Source: an uncultured Spirochaetales bacterium (GTDB lineage Bacteria > Spirochaetota > Spirochaetia > Sphaerochaetales > Sphaerochaetaceae). From it: a stretch of DNA of 64,000 bases. The notes beneath the pieces were generated by a model. The model did not search any database, was not told the DNA's origin, and worked only from the letters and a program-made list of their open reading frames with translations. Positions 37,549 through 44,856 of this stretch are shown here, piece by piece. Location of the stretch: NCBI GenBank assembly GCA_944392695.1, contig CALXXN010000002.1:124001-188000 (forward strand), written 5' to 3'. The translations under genes and the position numbers were made by a program. Position 1 is the stretch's first letter; each line of letters opens with the position of its first letter.

Positions 37549-39183
37549 TTACCCCATGGTTGACAGCTTGGCAATCTCCTCATGATGGGCAAGGGCCGCC
37601 TTCATGAAGGCATCAAAGATGGGATGGACCTTGTTTGGACGGCTCTTGAACTCAGGATGGGACTGTACCGCCAGGAAGAATGGATGGCCTGGCAGCTCCA
37701 TCGCCTCCACCAGGTGGCCATCAGGGCTGGTGCCTGAGAAGACAAGGCCGGCCTCCTCAAGCCTGTCCCTGAAGACAGGCGACACCTCATAACGGTGGCG
37801 GTGGCGCTCACTGACCATGGACTGGCCATAAGCCTTCCACAGGAGGCTGTCCTCCTTGACAAGGCAGGGCCAGCTGCCAAGGCGCATCGTGCCACCTTTC
37901 TCAGTGACATCCGCCTGGTCCTCCATCAAGTCGATCACGCACTCCTCCCCCTCCGGGTCGAACTCACGTGAGTTGGCCTTGGCAAGACCTGCGAGATTGC
38001 GGGCTGCCTCGATGACAGCGACCTGCATACCAAGGCAGATCCCGAAGAATGGGATGCCCTCCTGACGTGCGTATGTGACCGCTTGGATCATGCCCTCGAT
38101 TCCACGCGATCCGAAACCTCCTGGGACCAGGAGGCCATCGACACCAGCCAGGGAAGGCCCTGCACCTTCCTCTTCCACCACGCTGCTGTCGATGAAGACA
38201 AGTTCAAGCTGGATGTCATTGGCGCCAGCCGCATGGCCAAGCGCCTCGTTGATTGAAAGATAGGCATCGTGGAGGCGCACATACTTGCCACACAGGGCGA
38301 TCTTGACATGATGCCTGCCAGGCGCAGCGAGCCTGAGGGCGGCCTCCCTCCACTGCCCAAGGTCGGCATCGTGGCATTCCAAGGCGAGACGGGAGACGAC
38401 ATAATCATCAAAGCCACGCTCATGCAGGACTAGGGGGACTGAATAGAGCGAAGGCAGGTCCTCGTTGCCGATCACCGCCTCAGGAGGCACATTGCAGAAG
38501 AGGGCGATCTTGTCCAGGACCTCACGCGAGAGCCTCTTGTCACTACGGGCGATGATGCAGTCAGGCATGATGCCCATGCCCTGCAGCTCATGAACGGAGT
38601 GCTGGGCGGGCTTGGTCTTGTACTCGCCACTGCAGGCGAGCCAGGGGACCAGGACGACATGGATGAACATGCAACGCATAGGACCCAGCTCGCTCCTGAG
38701 CTGGCGTGCTGCCTCCAGGAAAGGCTGGCTTTCCATGTCGCCGATCGTGCCTCCAATCTCAGTGATCAGGACATCGCAGTCCGTATAGGCTCCTAAATCG
38801 CTTATGGACTTCTTGATCTCATCAGTGACGTGGGGGATGATCTGCACGGTGCTGCCCAGGTAGCCACCCTCCCTCTCACGATGGAGGACATTCCAATAAA
38901 CCCTGCCGCTTGTCAGGTTCGACTTGCGGTTCAGGTCCTCATCCATGAACCTCTCGTAATGACCAAGGTCGAGGTCGGTCTCAGCCCCATCCTCTGTGAC
39001 GAAGACCTCTCCATGCTGGTAAGGGCTCATCGTCCCAGGATCGACATTCATATAAGGGTCGAGCTTCTGGGCTGCGACCTTCAAGCCCCGTTCCTTCAAC
39101 AGCCGGCCAAGGGAGGCTGCGGTCACCCCCTTGCCCAGTCCTGATACGACTCCTCCTGTCACGAAGATATGCTTCCTCATCAT
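37549..39183 (-). CDS. pyrG: CTP synthase
   Basis: 544 residues. The synthetase half begins MMRKHIFVTGGVVSGLGKG and the glutaminase half has the nucleophile loop GICLGMQ and the SHPEFKS histidine. It converts UTP, ATP and glutamine to CTP. GGAGGAAGG precedes the ATG by a few bases. The leader contains an intrinsic terminator whose T tract ends two bases before this ribosome site, so the gene is very likely controlled by attenuation. It is divergent from asnB, another glutamine-dependent enzyme. Confidence 0.97.
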   Translation of the reverse strand: MMRKHIFVTGGVVSGLGKGVTAASLGRLLKERGLKVAAQKLDPYMNVDPGTMSPYQHGEVFVTEDGAETDLDLGHYERFMDEDLNRKSNLTSGRVYWNVLHREREGGYLGSTVQIIPHVTDEIKKSISDLGAYTDCDVLITEIGGTIGDMESQPFLEAARQLRSELGPMRCMFIHVVLVPWLACSGEYKTKPAQHSVHELQGMGIMPDCIIARSDKRLSREVLDKIALFCNVPPEAVIGNEDLPSLYSVPLVLHERGFDDYVVSRLALECHDADLGQWREAALRLAAPGRHHVKIALCGKYVRLHDAYLSINEALGHAAGANDIQLELVFIDSSVVEEEGAGPSLAGVDGLLVPGGFGSRGIEGMIQAVTYARQEGIPFFGICLGMQVAVIEAARNLAGLAKANSREFDPEGEECVIDLMEDQADVTEKGGTMRLGSWPCLVKEDSLLWKAYGQSMVSERHRHRYEVSPVFRDRLEEAGLVFSGTSPDGHLVEAMELPGHPFFLAVQSHPEFKSRPNKVHPIFDAFMKAALAHHEEIAKLSTMG

Positions 39184-39195
39184 GTCCTTCCTCCG

Positions 39196-39236
39196 AAAAA
39201 AGGAAAGGACGCCCACCTGATACGGTGGACGTCCTT
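39196..39236 (-). terminator. Attenuator in the pyrG leader
   Basis: On the minus strand AAGGACGTCCACC and GGTGGGCGTCCTT form a 13-bp stem (one T-G pair), loop GTATCA, followed by TCCTTTTTT. The pyrG ribosome site starts two bases later. The GTCCTT of the 3' arm can also pair with AAGGAC in the ribosome site region (39184-39189). Confidence 0.85.
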
Positions 39237-39248
39237 GTCCATGCGGGA

Positions 39249-39278
39249 TGTATAGGACAGATGGCGGGGCGTTGTCAA
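39249..39278 (-). promoter_or_regulatory. pyrG promoter
   Basis: On the minus strand a perfect TTGACA (39278-39273), 18 bases, and TATACA (39254-39249). The -35 box overlaps that of the divergent asnB promoter on the same seven bases. Confidence 0.7.
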
Positions 39279-39300
39279 TCTCAGGACTTCAGACTATCAT
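39272..39300 (+). promoter_or_regulatory. asnB promoter
   Basis: TTGTCA (39272-39277), 17 bases, TATCAT (39295-39300). The transcript would start near 39307 and carry a leader of about 95 bases with a terminator. Confidence 0.65.
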
Positions 39301-39326
39301 CTAGCCATCACAATGGACACAAGGAC

Positions 39327-39380
39327 GAAGGCGTCCGGCAGGGTTGCACATGAGGCAGCCCTCCGGGCGCCTTCCCTTTT
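39327..39380 (+). terminator. Attenuator in the asnB leader
   Basis: GAAGGCG-T-CCGG and CCGG-G-CGCCTTC form a 12-bp stem with one wobble, extended inward by GGGT/GCCC, and followed by CCTTTTA. AAGGAGG for asnB begins nine bases later. Confidence 0.75.
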
Positions 39381-39401
39381 ATCCAGGCAAGGAGGACGGG
39401 G

Positions 39402-40985
39402 ATGTGCACAGTGTTCGCATATGGAGGAAGGAGGCTGGATGAGGCTGGCGTGCTCTCACGCCTTGAGCTCACGCACAGGCGTGGACCTGATGGGCAATGC
39501 GTGACCAGGATGCCAGATGGGGGACTCATGGCCTTCCAGCGGCTCTCGATCATGGGCCTTGATGAAAGTGGCATGCAGCCCTTTTGCTACAAAGACTGGT
39601 ACAGCGTGACCAATGGTGAGCTTTACGGTTTCAGGCGCACGAAGGAGGACTTGATGAGAAGAGGTCATGTCTTCCATTCAGGCAGCGACTGCGAGCTTGT
39701 GCTCCACCTCTACGAGGAAGAAGGTGTGGACATGTTCAAAGTCCTCGACGCGGAGTTCGCCAGCGTGATCTGGGATCCCAGCGCAGGCTTCATCGCCGCC
39801 CGCGACCCCATTGGTATAAGACCACTCTTCTACGGACATGATGCTGATGGGGCGCCCGCCTTCGCAAGCGAGGCAAGGCTGCTGATAGGACTGTGCGATG
39901 ACATCAAGCCCTTCCCTCCTGGCACCTACTACCGTGATGGCGTGTTCACAACCTACTGCGACCTCACCAAGCAGGAGGTACGCCAGGTCAGCGAGGAAGA
40001 AGCGGCAAGGGGTATCAGGACACGGCTGGTCAAGGCGGTGGAGAAACGCCTTGACTCAGATGCGCCACTGGGCTTCCTGCTCTCAGGAGGCCTGGACAGC
40101 TCACTGGTCTGTGCGATCGCCGCGAAACGGCTGTCGAAACCAATCAGGACCTTCGCCATCGGCATGGAGGAGGATGCGATCGATGCACGCTATGCCAGGC
40201 AGGTCGCCTCCTACATACACAGCGAGCATACCGAGGTGCTGATGACGATGGACGAAGTCCTCTCAGCACTCGATGAGGTCATCTGCTGCCTTGCAAGCTA
40301 TGACATCACGACGATCAGGGCAAGCCTAGGGATGTACCTGCTGTGCCGCTACATCAGCCGTGAGACGGATGTGCGTGTCCTCCTCACTGGCGAGGTGTCT
40401 GACGAGCTCTTCGGCTACAAGTACACAGACTACGCACCAAGCCCGGAGGCCTTCCAGGAGGAAAGCATGAAACGCGTCAGGGAGCTGCACTGCTACGACG
40501 TGCTCCGGGCCGACCGCTGCATAGCGGACAACTCGATCGAGGCCCGCGTGCCCTTCGGAGACCTGGACTTCGCCTCCTATGTGCTCTCCCTTGACCCTTC
40601 AATCAAGATGAACCGCCATGGCAAGGGCAAGTGGCTCCTCCGCCAGGCCTTCAAGGACGGTGGCTGGCTGCCGGAGTCCATCCTGATGAGGGAGAAGGCG
40701 GCATTCAGCGATGCGGTGGGTCACAGCATGGTGGACAACATCAAGGCCCATGCGGCGAAACTCTATGAGGGCACCGCCTGGCAGGAGGAATGCCTGAAGT
40801 ACCCTGTGCAAGGACGTCCCTATACTCCAGAGTCCCTGCTCTACAGGACGATCTTCGAACGCCACTATCCTGGGCAGGCTGGCATGATACCAGGCTTCTG
40901 GATGCCGAACAGGTCCTGGGAGGGCTGTGACGTCGACGACCCTTCGGCCAGGGTGCTGGCGAACTACGGGGCAAGCGGATCCTGA
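39402..40985 (+). CDS. asnB: Asparagine synthetase (glutamine-hydrolysing)
   Basis: 527 residues. Cys2 (MCTVFAYGG) is the glutaminase nucleophile; RRGPDG, TNGELYGF and the RDPIGIRPLFYG segment complete the class II amidotransferase. The synthetase half has the PP-loop LLSGGLDSSLV and TGEVSDELFGYKY. It makes asparagine from aspartate, glutamine and ATP. AAGGAGG precedes the ATG, and an intrinsic terminator stands in the leader. It is divergent from pyrG, with shared promoter elements. Confidence 0.94.
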   Translation: MCTVFAYGGRRLDEAGVLSRLELTHRRGPDGQCVTRMPDGGLMAFQRLSIMGLDESGMQPFCYKDWYSVTNGELYGFRRTKEDLMRRGHVFHSGSDCELVLHLYEEEGVDMFKVLDAEFASVIWDPSAGFIAARDPIGIRPLFYGHDADGAPAFASEARLLIGLCDDIKPFPPGTYYRDGVFTTYCDLTKQEVRQVSEEEAARGIRTRLVKAVEKRLDSDAPLGFLLSGGLDSSLVCAIAAKRLSKPIRTFAIGMEEDAIDARYARQVASYIHSEHTEVLMTMDEVLSALDEVICCLASYDITTIRASLGMYLLCRYISRETDVRVLLTGEVSDELFGYKYTDYAPSPEAFQEESMKRVRELHCYDVLRADRCIADNSIEARVPFGDLDFASYVLSLDPSIKMNRHGKGKWLLRQAFKDGGWLPESILMREKAAFSDAVGHSMVDNIKAHAAKLYEGTAWQEECLKYPVQGRPYTPESLLYRTIFERHYPGQAGMIPGFWMPNRSWEGCDVDDPSARVLANYGASGS

Positions 40986-42902: not shown

Positions 42903-44141
42903 ATGCTTTTGGAGTTTTCATGTTCTAACCATAAATCCATCAAGGACAAAGTCACCTTCTCCTTGCTTGCAGGAAGTGACAACACTTTTGAAGAGCATCT
43001 GAAAGTCCATGATTCTTTCAGGGTCTTACGCACAGCTGTGATTTATGGGCCAAACGGATCAGGGAAAAGCAATTTCCTCAGTGCCATCGCCTTTGTCAGC
43101 AGCCTTGTCGCAACAAGTATCAACAACCAACCAGGACAGGGTGTCTTCCAAGCCAGGCACAAGCTAAGCGAGCCTGGTTCCCCCAGTGAATTCGCAGTGC
43201 AATTCATGCATGATGAAATACGCTATGCCTATGGTTTTTCTGTCGTACAGAACAAGATAGACAATGAATACCTGTATTATTTCCCAAAAGGAAGACAGGT
43301 GAAGATATTCGAGCGCGATGGAATCACCGTGAAACCAGGGGATAGGTATAAATCAGCATTCGACATCAGCACTACGATATTGAAGGACAACAGGTTGTTC
43401 CTTTCCTGTGCTGCGAATTACAGCAATGTGAAAGAAATAGAAGATGCATTCATTTTCTTTACAAGGGAAATCGTGGTTTACAACCCAACAATCAACAACT
43501 GGACTGAGTATTCTGTGTCCCTGATGCAGGAAAACGCACAGGTGAAAGACCTTTTTGTCAAAATACTCCAGTCATTGGGAACTGGAATAAAGGACGTGAA
43601 GGTGAGAATGGAAAAAGTGGACCTGTCGGAACTTCCACAGGAAACCATGCTACCTGAGGCGATAAGAAGTCTTATAGGCAACAATGATGTGAACAAGGTC
43701 GACGCCAAGGTCATATATGATGATTTCGAAGTAGACCTGGTCAGTGAAGAATCTGAGGGCATCAAGAAGCTGTTCCAGTTGATTTGCCCGATAATCGATA
43801 TACTTGATTCCGGCAAGATCCTTATCTGCGATGAAATAGAGTCCAGCCTGCATGAATCTGTAGTCTTCCAAATAATACAGCTTTTCATGAACTACAAGAA
43901 AGATGCTTTCGCACAGCTGGTCTTCTCCACCCATGATACAAGCTTGTTGGACTCCGATTTGTTCCGGAGGGATCAGATATGGTTCACCCAGCTCAAAGAG
44001 GACAGGTCGACCGATTTGTATTCGCTTACAGAAATAAGGAATGTCCGTAAAACGGAGAATATCGCCAAAGGGTATATTTCTGGCAAGTATGGTGCCATAC
44101 CAATGCTTAACAAGGCTTTCTTCGACAATCTTGGTCATTGA
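42903..44141 (+). CDS. AAA ATPase of the RecF/OLD-like (AAA_15) type, defence candidate
   Basis: 412 residues. Walker A GPNGSGKS is at 49-56, an ABC-like signature SEESEGIKKLF near 281, Walker B LICDEIE with Asp310 and Glu311, and a switch STHD at 342-345. The N terminus FSCSNHKSIKD is typical of AAA_15 proteins that partner toxins or nucleases in defence systems (for example RloA- and AbiL-type). There is no C-terminal TOPRIM domain, so the effector is probably the HEPN protein encoded 16 bases downstream. GGAGG precedes the ATG. A/T content is higher than in sufB and asnB, fitting recent acquisition. Confidence 0.88.
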   Translation: MLLEFSCSNHKSIKDKVTFSLLAGSDNTFEEHLKVHDSFRVLRTAVIYGPNGSGKSNFLSAIAFVSSLVATSINNQPGQGVFQARHKLSEPGSPSEFAVQFMHDEIRYAYGFSVVQNKIDNEYLYYFPKGRQVKIFERDGITVKPGDRYKSAFDISTTILKDNRLFLSCAANYSNVKEIEDAFIFFTREIVVYNPTINNWTEYSVSLMQENAQVKDLFVKILQSLGTGIKDVKVRMEKVDLSELPQETMLPEAIRSLIGNNDVNKVDAKVIYDDFEVDLVSEESEGIKKLFQLICPIIDILDSGKILICDEIESSLHESVVFQIIQLFMNYKKDAFAQLVFSTHDTSLLDSDLFRRDQIWFTQLKEDRSTDLYSLTEIRNVRKTENIAKGYISGKYGAIPMLNKAFFDNLGH

Positions 44142-44157
44142 TGCATAGGTGAGGGAT

Positions 44158-44856
44158 ATGGAAAGACGGAATCTGACGTTGAACAAAAGATTGGAAGGCA
44201 CACGGGATAAGACGGTATCCCGTGTTGTCAAATTCAATCTTGACCAGATACTGGCGCATTTCAAGGAAACAATCGAATCCATCAAAGCTCATTTCAACAC
44301 AGCCGGACAATTGATTGCTTCTGGAAAACGTGCTGAGGCTGAATATATATGGAGGGCACAGATTGTCTTTGTTGCAGGAGCATTCGACTTCTATATGCAC
44401 GAGCTGACGAAATTCGGCCTTTGTGAGATCCATGATGGCAGATGGCCTAAGACAGACAAGTACAATAACATTGAATTGCCTTTGTCTGTCTTGGAGGAAG
44501 TGCTACAAGATGGTGGGAATGCCGACTGGTTCCTTGAGTATATCAATGGTTATTACCAGACTGTCACAATGATCTCATATGAATCCACGAAAGCCCAACT
44601 GAATCTATTAGGCATGGATGGCAGGAATGTTGCTGATGCCGCATTTCATCAAAGAGGGGATACAGAGAAAACCACGGACAAACTCAAGCGCAGGCTTACC
44701 GAGTTGTTCTATCGCAGGAATATCATTGCGCATCAAACAGACAGGATGCACTCCGATGCATCAATAAACAGGATATCAAAAGAAACTGTGGAAAAATATA
44801 TCATCGATGTGGAAAAGATTGTAATGGCTATAGATAACGAAGCACGAGCCATATGA
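44158..44856 (+). CDS. HEPN-domain protein, probable RNase effector
   Basis: 232 residues. RRNIIAH at 186-192 gives Arg187-Asn-x3-His192, the canonical HEPN RNase motif, in a helical C-terminal region followed by ISKETVEKYIIDVEKIV. The front part (AQIVFVAGAFDFYMHELTKFG) resembles RiboL-PSP/MAE_28990-type HEPN proteins. With an ABC-type AAA partner this is the layout of a toxin-type anti-phage pair, where the ATPase would restrain or trigger RNA cleavage. ATG 44158 is preferred (AGGTGAGG upstream); GTG 44149 is in frame. Its stop overlaps the next small ORF by ATGA. Confidence 0.82.
   Translation: MERRNLTLNKRLEGTRDKTVSRVVKFNLDQILAHFKETIESIKAHFNTAGQLIASGKRAEAEYIWRAQIVFVAGAFDFYMHELTKFGLCEIHDGRWPKTDKYNNIELPLSVLEEVLQDGGNADWFLEYINGYYQTVTMISYESTKAQLNLLGMDGRNVADAAFHQRGDTEKTTDKLKRRLTELFYRRNIIAHQTDRMHSDASINRISKETVEKYIIDVEKIVMAIDNEARAI

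Follow-up and report, generated by a model that had tools for sequence, protein, structure and literature searches.

ANTAR antiterminators and their known targets

The ANTAR antiterminators described in literature act on dual hairpins that lie 5–12 nt apart (PMC3369931; PMC8934654). Such a target is recognised by a stem of 3–4 bp whose closing pair is C-G and whose next pair is A-U (the A-C/G-U stem top), by a six-base loop in which the first base is A (A1) and the fourth is G (G4), and by a terminator that shares the 3′ arm of the hairpin (PMC3369931; PMC7496416). In eutP, a swap of the two closing pairs, or a change of A1 or G4, reduces or abolishes induction (PMC3369931; PMC7496416). Both hairpins are needed in vivo, as deletion of the upstream hairpin P1 or extension of the linker by 20 nt abolishes control by EutV (PMC3369931; PMC8934654), and NasR binds the single P2 hairpin only weakly, at about 12 µM (PMC7496416). 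In the EutV crystal structure the dimer contacts one hexaloop at a time; its authors raise the questions of why a second hexaloop is required and whether sites with just one have any regulatory function, which they expect where the time limit set by transcription is absent (PMC8934654).

The leaders described here resemble the eut leaders of Enterococcus, Listeria and Clostridium in the hexaloop with A1 and G4, in the conserved A-C/G-U stem top and in the terminator sharing the 3′ arm, as well as in the presence of an ANTAR protein and in the nitrogen theme. However, two hairpins are required in the eut leaders (PMC3369931; PMC8934654), whereas here there is one, at the 5′ end. Moreover, the receiver of EutV can be phosphorylated, whereas here the corresponding residue is E, N or D. 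The nasF and amiE leaders also place nitrogen genes under ANTAR antitermination, by NasR and AmiR, respectively, and AmiR shares with the protein described here a His at the Tyr164 position and a receiver-like domain, which in AmiR is not phosphorylated. These systems differ in their dual hairpins, in having single operons as targets and in that a ligand or the partner AmiC is known. The ANTAR nitrogen regulons predicted in Desulfotomaculum comprise several glutamine, glutamate or ammonium operons, which is similar to the present case, but they were found by a dual-hairpin model (PMC3369931). Spirochaetes, CTP synthase and asparagine are absent from the main text of that study (PMC3369931). 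A description of single-hairpin ANTAR leaders, or of ANTAR proteins in spirochaetes, was not found in the open-licence literature.

The DNA analysed here, further called the window, is a stretch of 64,000 nt from an uncultured Spirochaetales bacterium. It carries a divergent pair of genes, pyrG and asnB, which we place, with a probability of roughly 0.8, in a nitrogen regulon run by a glutamine synthetase (GS)-linked ANTAR protein through single-hexaloop antitermination.

The divergent pyrG–asnB locus

The pyrG gene (37549..39183, − strand; NCBIfam PRK05380, E 1e-239) encodes CTP synthase, and asnB (39402..40985, + strand; PRK09431, E 3.8e-162) encodes the glutamine-hydrolysing asparagine synthase B, so that both genes use glutamine, as a sequence-only reading of the window had stated. 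That reading also took TTGTCAA at 39272-39278 for the −35 element of both genes. The letters indeed fit in both directions. On the − strand, the pyrG −35 box TTGACA (39273..39278) is followed after 18 nt by the −10 box TATACA (39249..39254), and the hairpin arm discussed below begins 8 nt past the end of that box. The predicted pyrG start is the A/G of AUGGAC, 2 nt upstream of the arm. A leader peptide read from this AUGGAC was considered and dropped, as there is no ribosome site and the position of the AUG is not kept in relatives. On the + strand, the candidate asnB −35 box TTGTCA (39272..39277), which overlaps that of pyrG, and the candidate −10 box TATCAT (39295..39300) are separated by 17 nt. 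They match in 10 of 12 positions and form the only promoter-like site that a promoter scan reports between 38900 and 39700; 22 nt lie between this best −10 box and the hairpin arm.

The divergent pair is kept in five genomes. While the TTGACA of pyrG (TGTCAA on the + strand) is invariant in all five, the overlap of the −35 boxes is not kept in the four relatives. The best asnB −35 box, TTTTCA, lies at least 7 bp away in three of the five genomes, and TTGTCA is a feature of the window. Other congeners have asnB in a different place, either behind an apparent glutamate synthase (gltS) operon or in one operon with pyrG. Since the asnB box is not kept and the gene itself is placed elsewhere in other congeners, the overlap is, as judged from these comparisons, a local accident and not a regulatory device, and the role that had been proposed for the shared box is not supported. 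Mutual exclusion of the two polymerases is possible in this species.

The strong terminators that had been noted ahead of both ribosome sites are present. In the pyrG leader, a mini-hairpin GGAC-AAGGAC-GUCC (39227..39240, −; −4.0 kcal/mol) has A1, G4 and a C-G closing pair. Its loop and 3′ arm are overlapped by the 5′ strand of an intrinsic terminator hairpin (39205..39236, −), which was found by a terminator scan, is supported by pair counts and has 13 pairs and a folding energy of −24.6 kcal/mol. A good U-rich tail (39195..39204, −) and the ribosome site GGAGGAAGG (39186..39194, −) follow. The asnB leader has the mini-hairpin GGAC-GAAGGC-GUCC (39323..39336, +), a model match and, with G at loop position 1, the weakest member of the set; ViennaRNA extends its fold across G1. 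The terminator hairpin behind it (39327..39374, +) has one bulge and a short, poor U-tract (CCUUUUAUCC); it was missed by the rule of the terminator scan, yet folds strongly (−38.8 kcal/mol). Its G1, long 5′ stretch and poor U-tract suggest that the asnB leader of the window may be a decaying member. Loss of the terminators in close relatives had been named in advance as evidence against the sequence-only reading; it was looked for, and the terminators persist. In general, the mini-hairpins are weak (−3.7 to −6.0 kcal/mol in four leaders of this genome) compared to the terminators, so termination should be the default.

A covariance model of the leader, R1, gives two clear matches in the 64-kb window, at pyrG (39243-39198, E 5e-8) and at asnB (39320-39381, E 4.8e-6), both of which are among the sequences that built the model. 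The one remaining match (E 0.45) comes from the opposite strand of the pyrG hairpin. No Rfam family, T-box included, reaches its gathering score within the window.

Conservation of the leader element

The pyrG leaders of congeners begin alike, with NNAC, six bases and GUNN, followed by a terminator in which these six bases and the 3′ arm take part again, and the same element is present in their asnB leaders. A strict pattern search making no demand on the outer NN pair yielded 36 matches in 16 congeners, compared to 12 control matches. They include leaders of pyrG, asnB, GSIII, an archaeal-type glutamate synthase and an ATP-grasp operon, and the outer pair is complementary in every leader read from this search. 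Matches that do not precede a gene with a promoter were set aside as chance or ordinary terminators.

Among 31 distinct leaders, 99.2% of the cells of the mini-hairpin are paired, against 79.5% after shuffling, and slid partners pair in 36-43% of the cells wherever all four pairs are counted. Thirty cells are changed on both sides. Such two-sided changes occur in three of the four pairs, while the closing C-G pair never varies (31/31). The stems seen are GGAC/GUCC, AGAC/GUCU, GAAC/GUUC, UGAC/GUCA, AAAC/GUUU, UAAC/GUUA and CAGC/GCUG; the pair before the closing C-G is thus A-U, but also G-C. Loop position 4 is G in all 31 leaders and position 1 is A in 30, the window's asnB having G1. Terminator pairing is supported at 97.5%. 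In nearly all leaders the 5′ arm is not part of the terminator stem, so the covariation of this arm is evidence for a further structure, alternative to the terminator. With this exception of G1 in asnB, the leaders have the hexaloop, A1, G4 and a stem of at least 3 bp, as ANTAR hexaloops do, and the mini-hairpin overlaps the terminator's 5′ strand in the way of a P2 hairpin.

A proposed regulon of nitrogen genes and its ANTAR gene

Only one gene of this genome scores above the Pfam cut-off for the ANTAR domain (PF03861, 46-49 bits). It is located on another contig (L114:5707-6288, G000:C1), between the genes of GS-I and GSIII, and the leader of this GS-I–ANTAR–GSIII operon carries CAGC-AAGGGC-GCUG on a terminator (model E 2.8e-5). 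The leader of the glutamate synthase (gltS) operon, on a further contig, carries GGAC-AAGGAC-GUCC. One switch is therefore common to four transcription units of this genome, i.e., GS-I/ANTAR/GSIII, glutamate synthase (GOGAT), asnB and pyrG, a list from model searches and selected stretches that is possibly incomplete. As the ANTAR gene is itself part of one of these units, autoregulation is predicted. The presence of the same ANTAR-type hexaloop hairpin on the pyrG, asnB, GS and glutamate synthase leaders also predicts joint control by nitrogen status, and not the competition that had been supposed, in which the locus would split glutamine between CTP and asparagine.

In relatives, the leader is found ahead of pyrG, asnB, GS, GltS, amt or carA, and a GS-I gene usually lies immediately upstream of the ANTAR gene. 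In other families of the class, model matches precede pyrG and carA (L222, L227, L223), and looser copies outside the family precede GSIII, amt and asnB (L217, L218, L220).

The leader and the ANTAR gene occur together. Within the same family, the leader is present in 65 of 70 genomes with the ANTAR gene and in 5 of 49 without it (119 genomes: both 65, ANTAR only 5, model only 5, neither 44; Fisher 3e-21). For a sample of the class, these numbers are 45 of 52 and 5 of 245 (297 genomes: both 45, ANTAR only 7, model only 5, neither 240; Fisher 5e-40). Outside the own family, from which nearly all sequences of the model come (L222 is the one genome from elsewhere), the model matches in 15 of 21 ANTAR genomes and in 5 of 236 others (Fisher 1e-15). 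Genome counts are not phylogenetically independent, and kinship makes all these Fisher values overstate independence. Of the 52 ANTAR genomes sampled from the class, 7 lack a model match, and some of these have looser copies (G281 at L217, G368 at L221). Linkage is not involved in this genome, where the ANTAR gene is on C1, pyrG and asnB on C2 and gltS on C15.

Two further leaders are of interest. At about 4079 (−) of L213 (G101:C20:10030-10078) there is a strong model match (E 4.1e-6; AAAC-AAAGGC-GUUG), for which the nearest long frame downstream is peptidase-like and outside the nitrogen set. In G024, which is 98% complete and has no ANTAR hit, a terminator without hexaloop stem lies right behind the promoter, about 100 nt before pyrG (L018), which would fit a relic as well as some other kind of attenuator.

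One hairpin instead of two

The distance from the end of the best promoter to the hairpin arm is 6-12 nt in 46 of 70 non-redundant leaders. In 43 of the 70, this gap is combined with at least 9 of 12 promoter matches, whereas in 200 shuffles such leaders number 1.8 on average and never more than 8. If transcription starts some 7 nt past the −10 box, 0-6 nt are left ahead of the hairpin, and if the predicted promoters are right, the sequences leave no room for a second one. Only 5 of the 70 leaders (0.6 expected) have another hexaloop in the 90 nt before the hairpin, the smallest start-to-start distance being 41 nt, and in this genome no leader was found to have a P1 hexaloop a short linker upstream. 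The same scan flagged a close dual motif only at L219, where it has a 4-nt linker and lies beside a receiver-ANTAR gene, which illustrates that close duals are reported where present. The leaders thus lack the P1 of the canonical dual-hairpin motif, and their sequences suggest a mode of action that is probably that of its P2 half.

Besides these single sites, there are more distant arrangements, so two hexaloops can occur; the five leaders just counted are gltS of G032, G071 and G088 and GSIII of G004 and G106. A second hexaloop lies 41-52 nt away, start to start, in the gltS leaders of G032, G071 and G088 (L202 10357/10408, L206 11879/11931, L208 2930/2971), and in gltS of G034 another one lies 106 nt upstream. 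The GSIII leaders of the L202 and L208 genomes have one hexaloop, so that single and distant-dual sites occur there under one protein. Two complete hairpin-terminator units, 64 and 75 nt apart, are present in the GSIII leaders of G004 and G106, and that of G368 also has two complete copies in a row (double units at L205 4215/4279, L188 1743/1818 and L221 5782/5928).

The ANTAR protein

According to Pfam and to its predicted fold, the protein has a receiver-like domain, a helical linker and an ANTAR domain. It aligns with Rv1626, EutV and AmiR in phmmer, and the top PDB folds retrieved by Foldseek with its AlphaFold2 model (pLDDT 94.6) are AmiR, Rv1626 and RNA-bound EutV. A conserved phospho-acceptor aspartate, by which response regulators are recognised, was not found in an alignment of 13 relatives read by eye. 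The position is E in this genome and N or D in relatives, which makes phosphorylation unlikely as a general signal. The RNA-contacting Tyr164 of EutV corresponds to His, as in AmiR (phmmer alignment), and the positions of Arg142 and Lys147 of EutV appear as Glu when the alignment is read by eye. A partner for the protein is likely. In Bacillus, glutamine synthetase acts as a sensor. By this analogy and by gene position, GS-I would be a natural candidate.

Proposed mechanism and alternatives

The reading of pyrG and asnB as members of the nitrogen regulon is carried by the hairpin, its covariation, its overlap with the terminator, the leader common to GS, GOGAT, asnB and pyrG and the co-occurrence with the ANTAR gene, all of which can be read from the sequences; from these we infer the transcript starts, the binding of the ANTAR protein, the direction of antitermination and the signal. 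Transcription would start a few nt before the 4-bp hairpin with its six-base loop. By default, the far more stable terminator would re-use the loop and the 3′ arm, and transcription would stop before the ribosome site. Activated presumably under nitrogen or glutamine limitation, the ANTAR protein (G000:C1) would bind the single hexaloop as the hairpin emerges from RNA polymerase, holding the 3′ arm long enough for the polymerase to pass the U-tract. In glutamine-poor cells, the genes that make glutamine and its users pyrG and asnB would then rise together, although the sign may be reversed for the users. Points against this mechanism are that EutV needs both hairpins and NasR binds P2 alone only weakly (PMC3369931; PMC7496416), the G1 and the distant −10 box of the window's asnB leader, the ANTAR genomes that lack a model match, the few leaders with two hexaloops and the different residues at Tyr164, Arg142 and Lys147 of EutV.

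Different explanations of the two leaders can be considered. Attenuation of pyrG by CTP is known in Firmicutes; in Bacillus subtilis it works by reiterative transcription at a GGGC start, and the leader there has a terminator soon after the start, as the pyrG leader does here. Both leaders of the window end in terminators, and these could be separate attenuators, with pyrG responding to CTP by reiterative transcription and asnB controlled by another device such as a T-box or a leader peptide. However, the predicted starts do not have GGGC, that of the window's pyrG being the A/G given above, the Rfam search was negative, and pyrG and asnB have one covarying element in common with the GS and GOGAT genes, which together make separate devices extremely improbable.

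Another explanation is that the mini-hairpin is real but is read by another RNA-binding protein or a ligand, the ANTAR gene merely travelling with nitrogen genes, as its linkage to GS could yield co-occurrence without interaction. Nevertheless, the loop letters and the closing pair that are conserved here are required by EutV and NasR (PMC3369931; PMC7496416), the co-occurrence is also seen without linkage of the genes, of which this genome is an example, and family genomes without the ANTAR gene usually lack the motif, so that we regard a different reader as quite improbable. Highly improbable, finally, is that the attenuators are constitutive and that regulation comes from the divergent promoters competing for RNA polymerase: the −35 boxes do overlap in the window, but it is the leader element that is conserved instead, while the overlap is not kept in the four relatives and asnB is not divergent to pyrG in other congeners.

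Beyond the two genes, single-hexaloop control by the ANTAR protein has a wider meaning. We consider it likely that one hexaloop at the start of the transcript suffices for ANTAR antitermination and that the whole nitrogen regulon of these spirochaetes (GS, GOGAT, asnB, pyrG and in places amt and carA) is wired in this way, with the regulator beside GS-I. Such leaders would have escaped dual-hairpin searches. With dozens of natural one-hexaloop leaders on terminators at the transcript start, the question of single-hexaloop sites becomes directly testable, and for the Spirochaetia a concrete hypothesis on nitrogen control is obtained in which CTP and asparagine synthesis would be tied to glutamine supply.

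Neighbouring features of the window

Downstream of asnB, right behind sufC/sufD-like genes, an AAA ATPase gene (42903-44141, +) matches AbiLi (PADLOC, 292 bits) and is followed by a gene for a RiboL-PSP-HEPN protein (44149-44856, +; Pfam just over the cut-off); the two form a candidate phage-defence pair. Between 46600 and 62800, the G+C content drops from about 0.58 to 0.45-0.47. The genes in this region, named by eye, resemble those of surface polysaccharide synthesis (sialic-acid-synthase-like, LicD-like, glycosyltransferases and a flippase), and the region is, judging from its composition and gene content, likely an acquired island.
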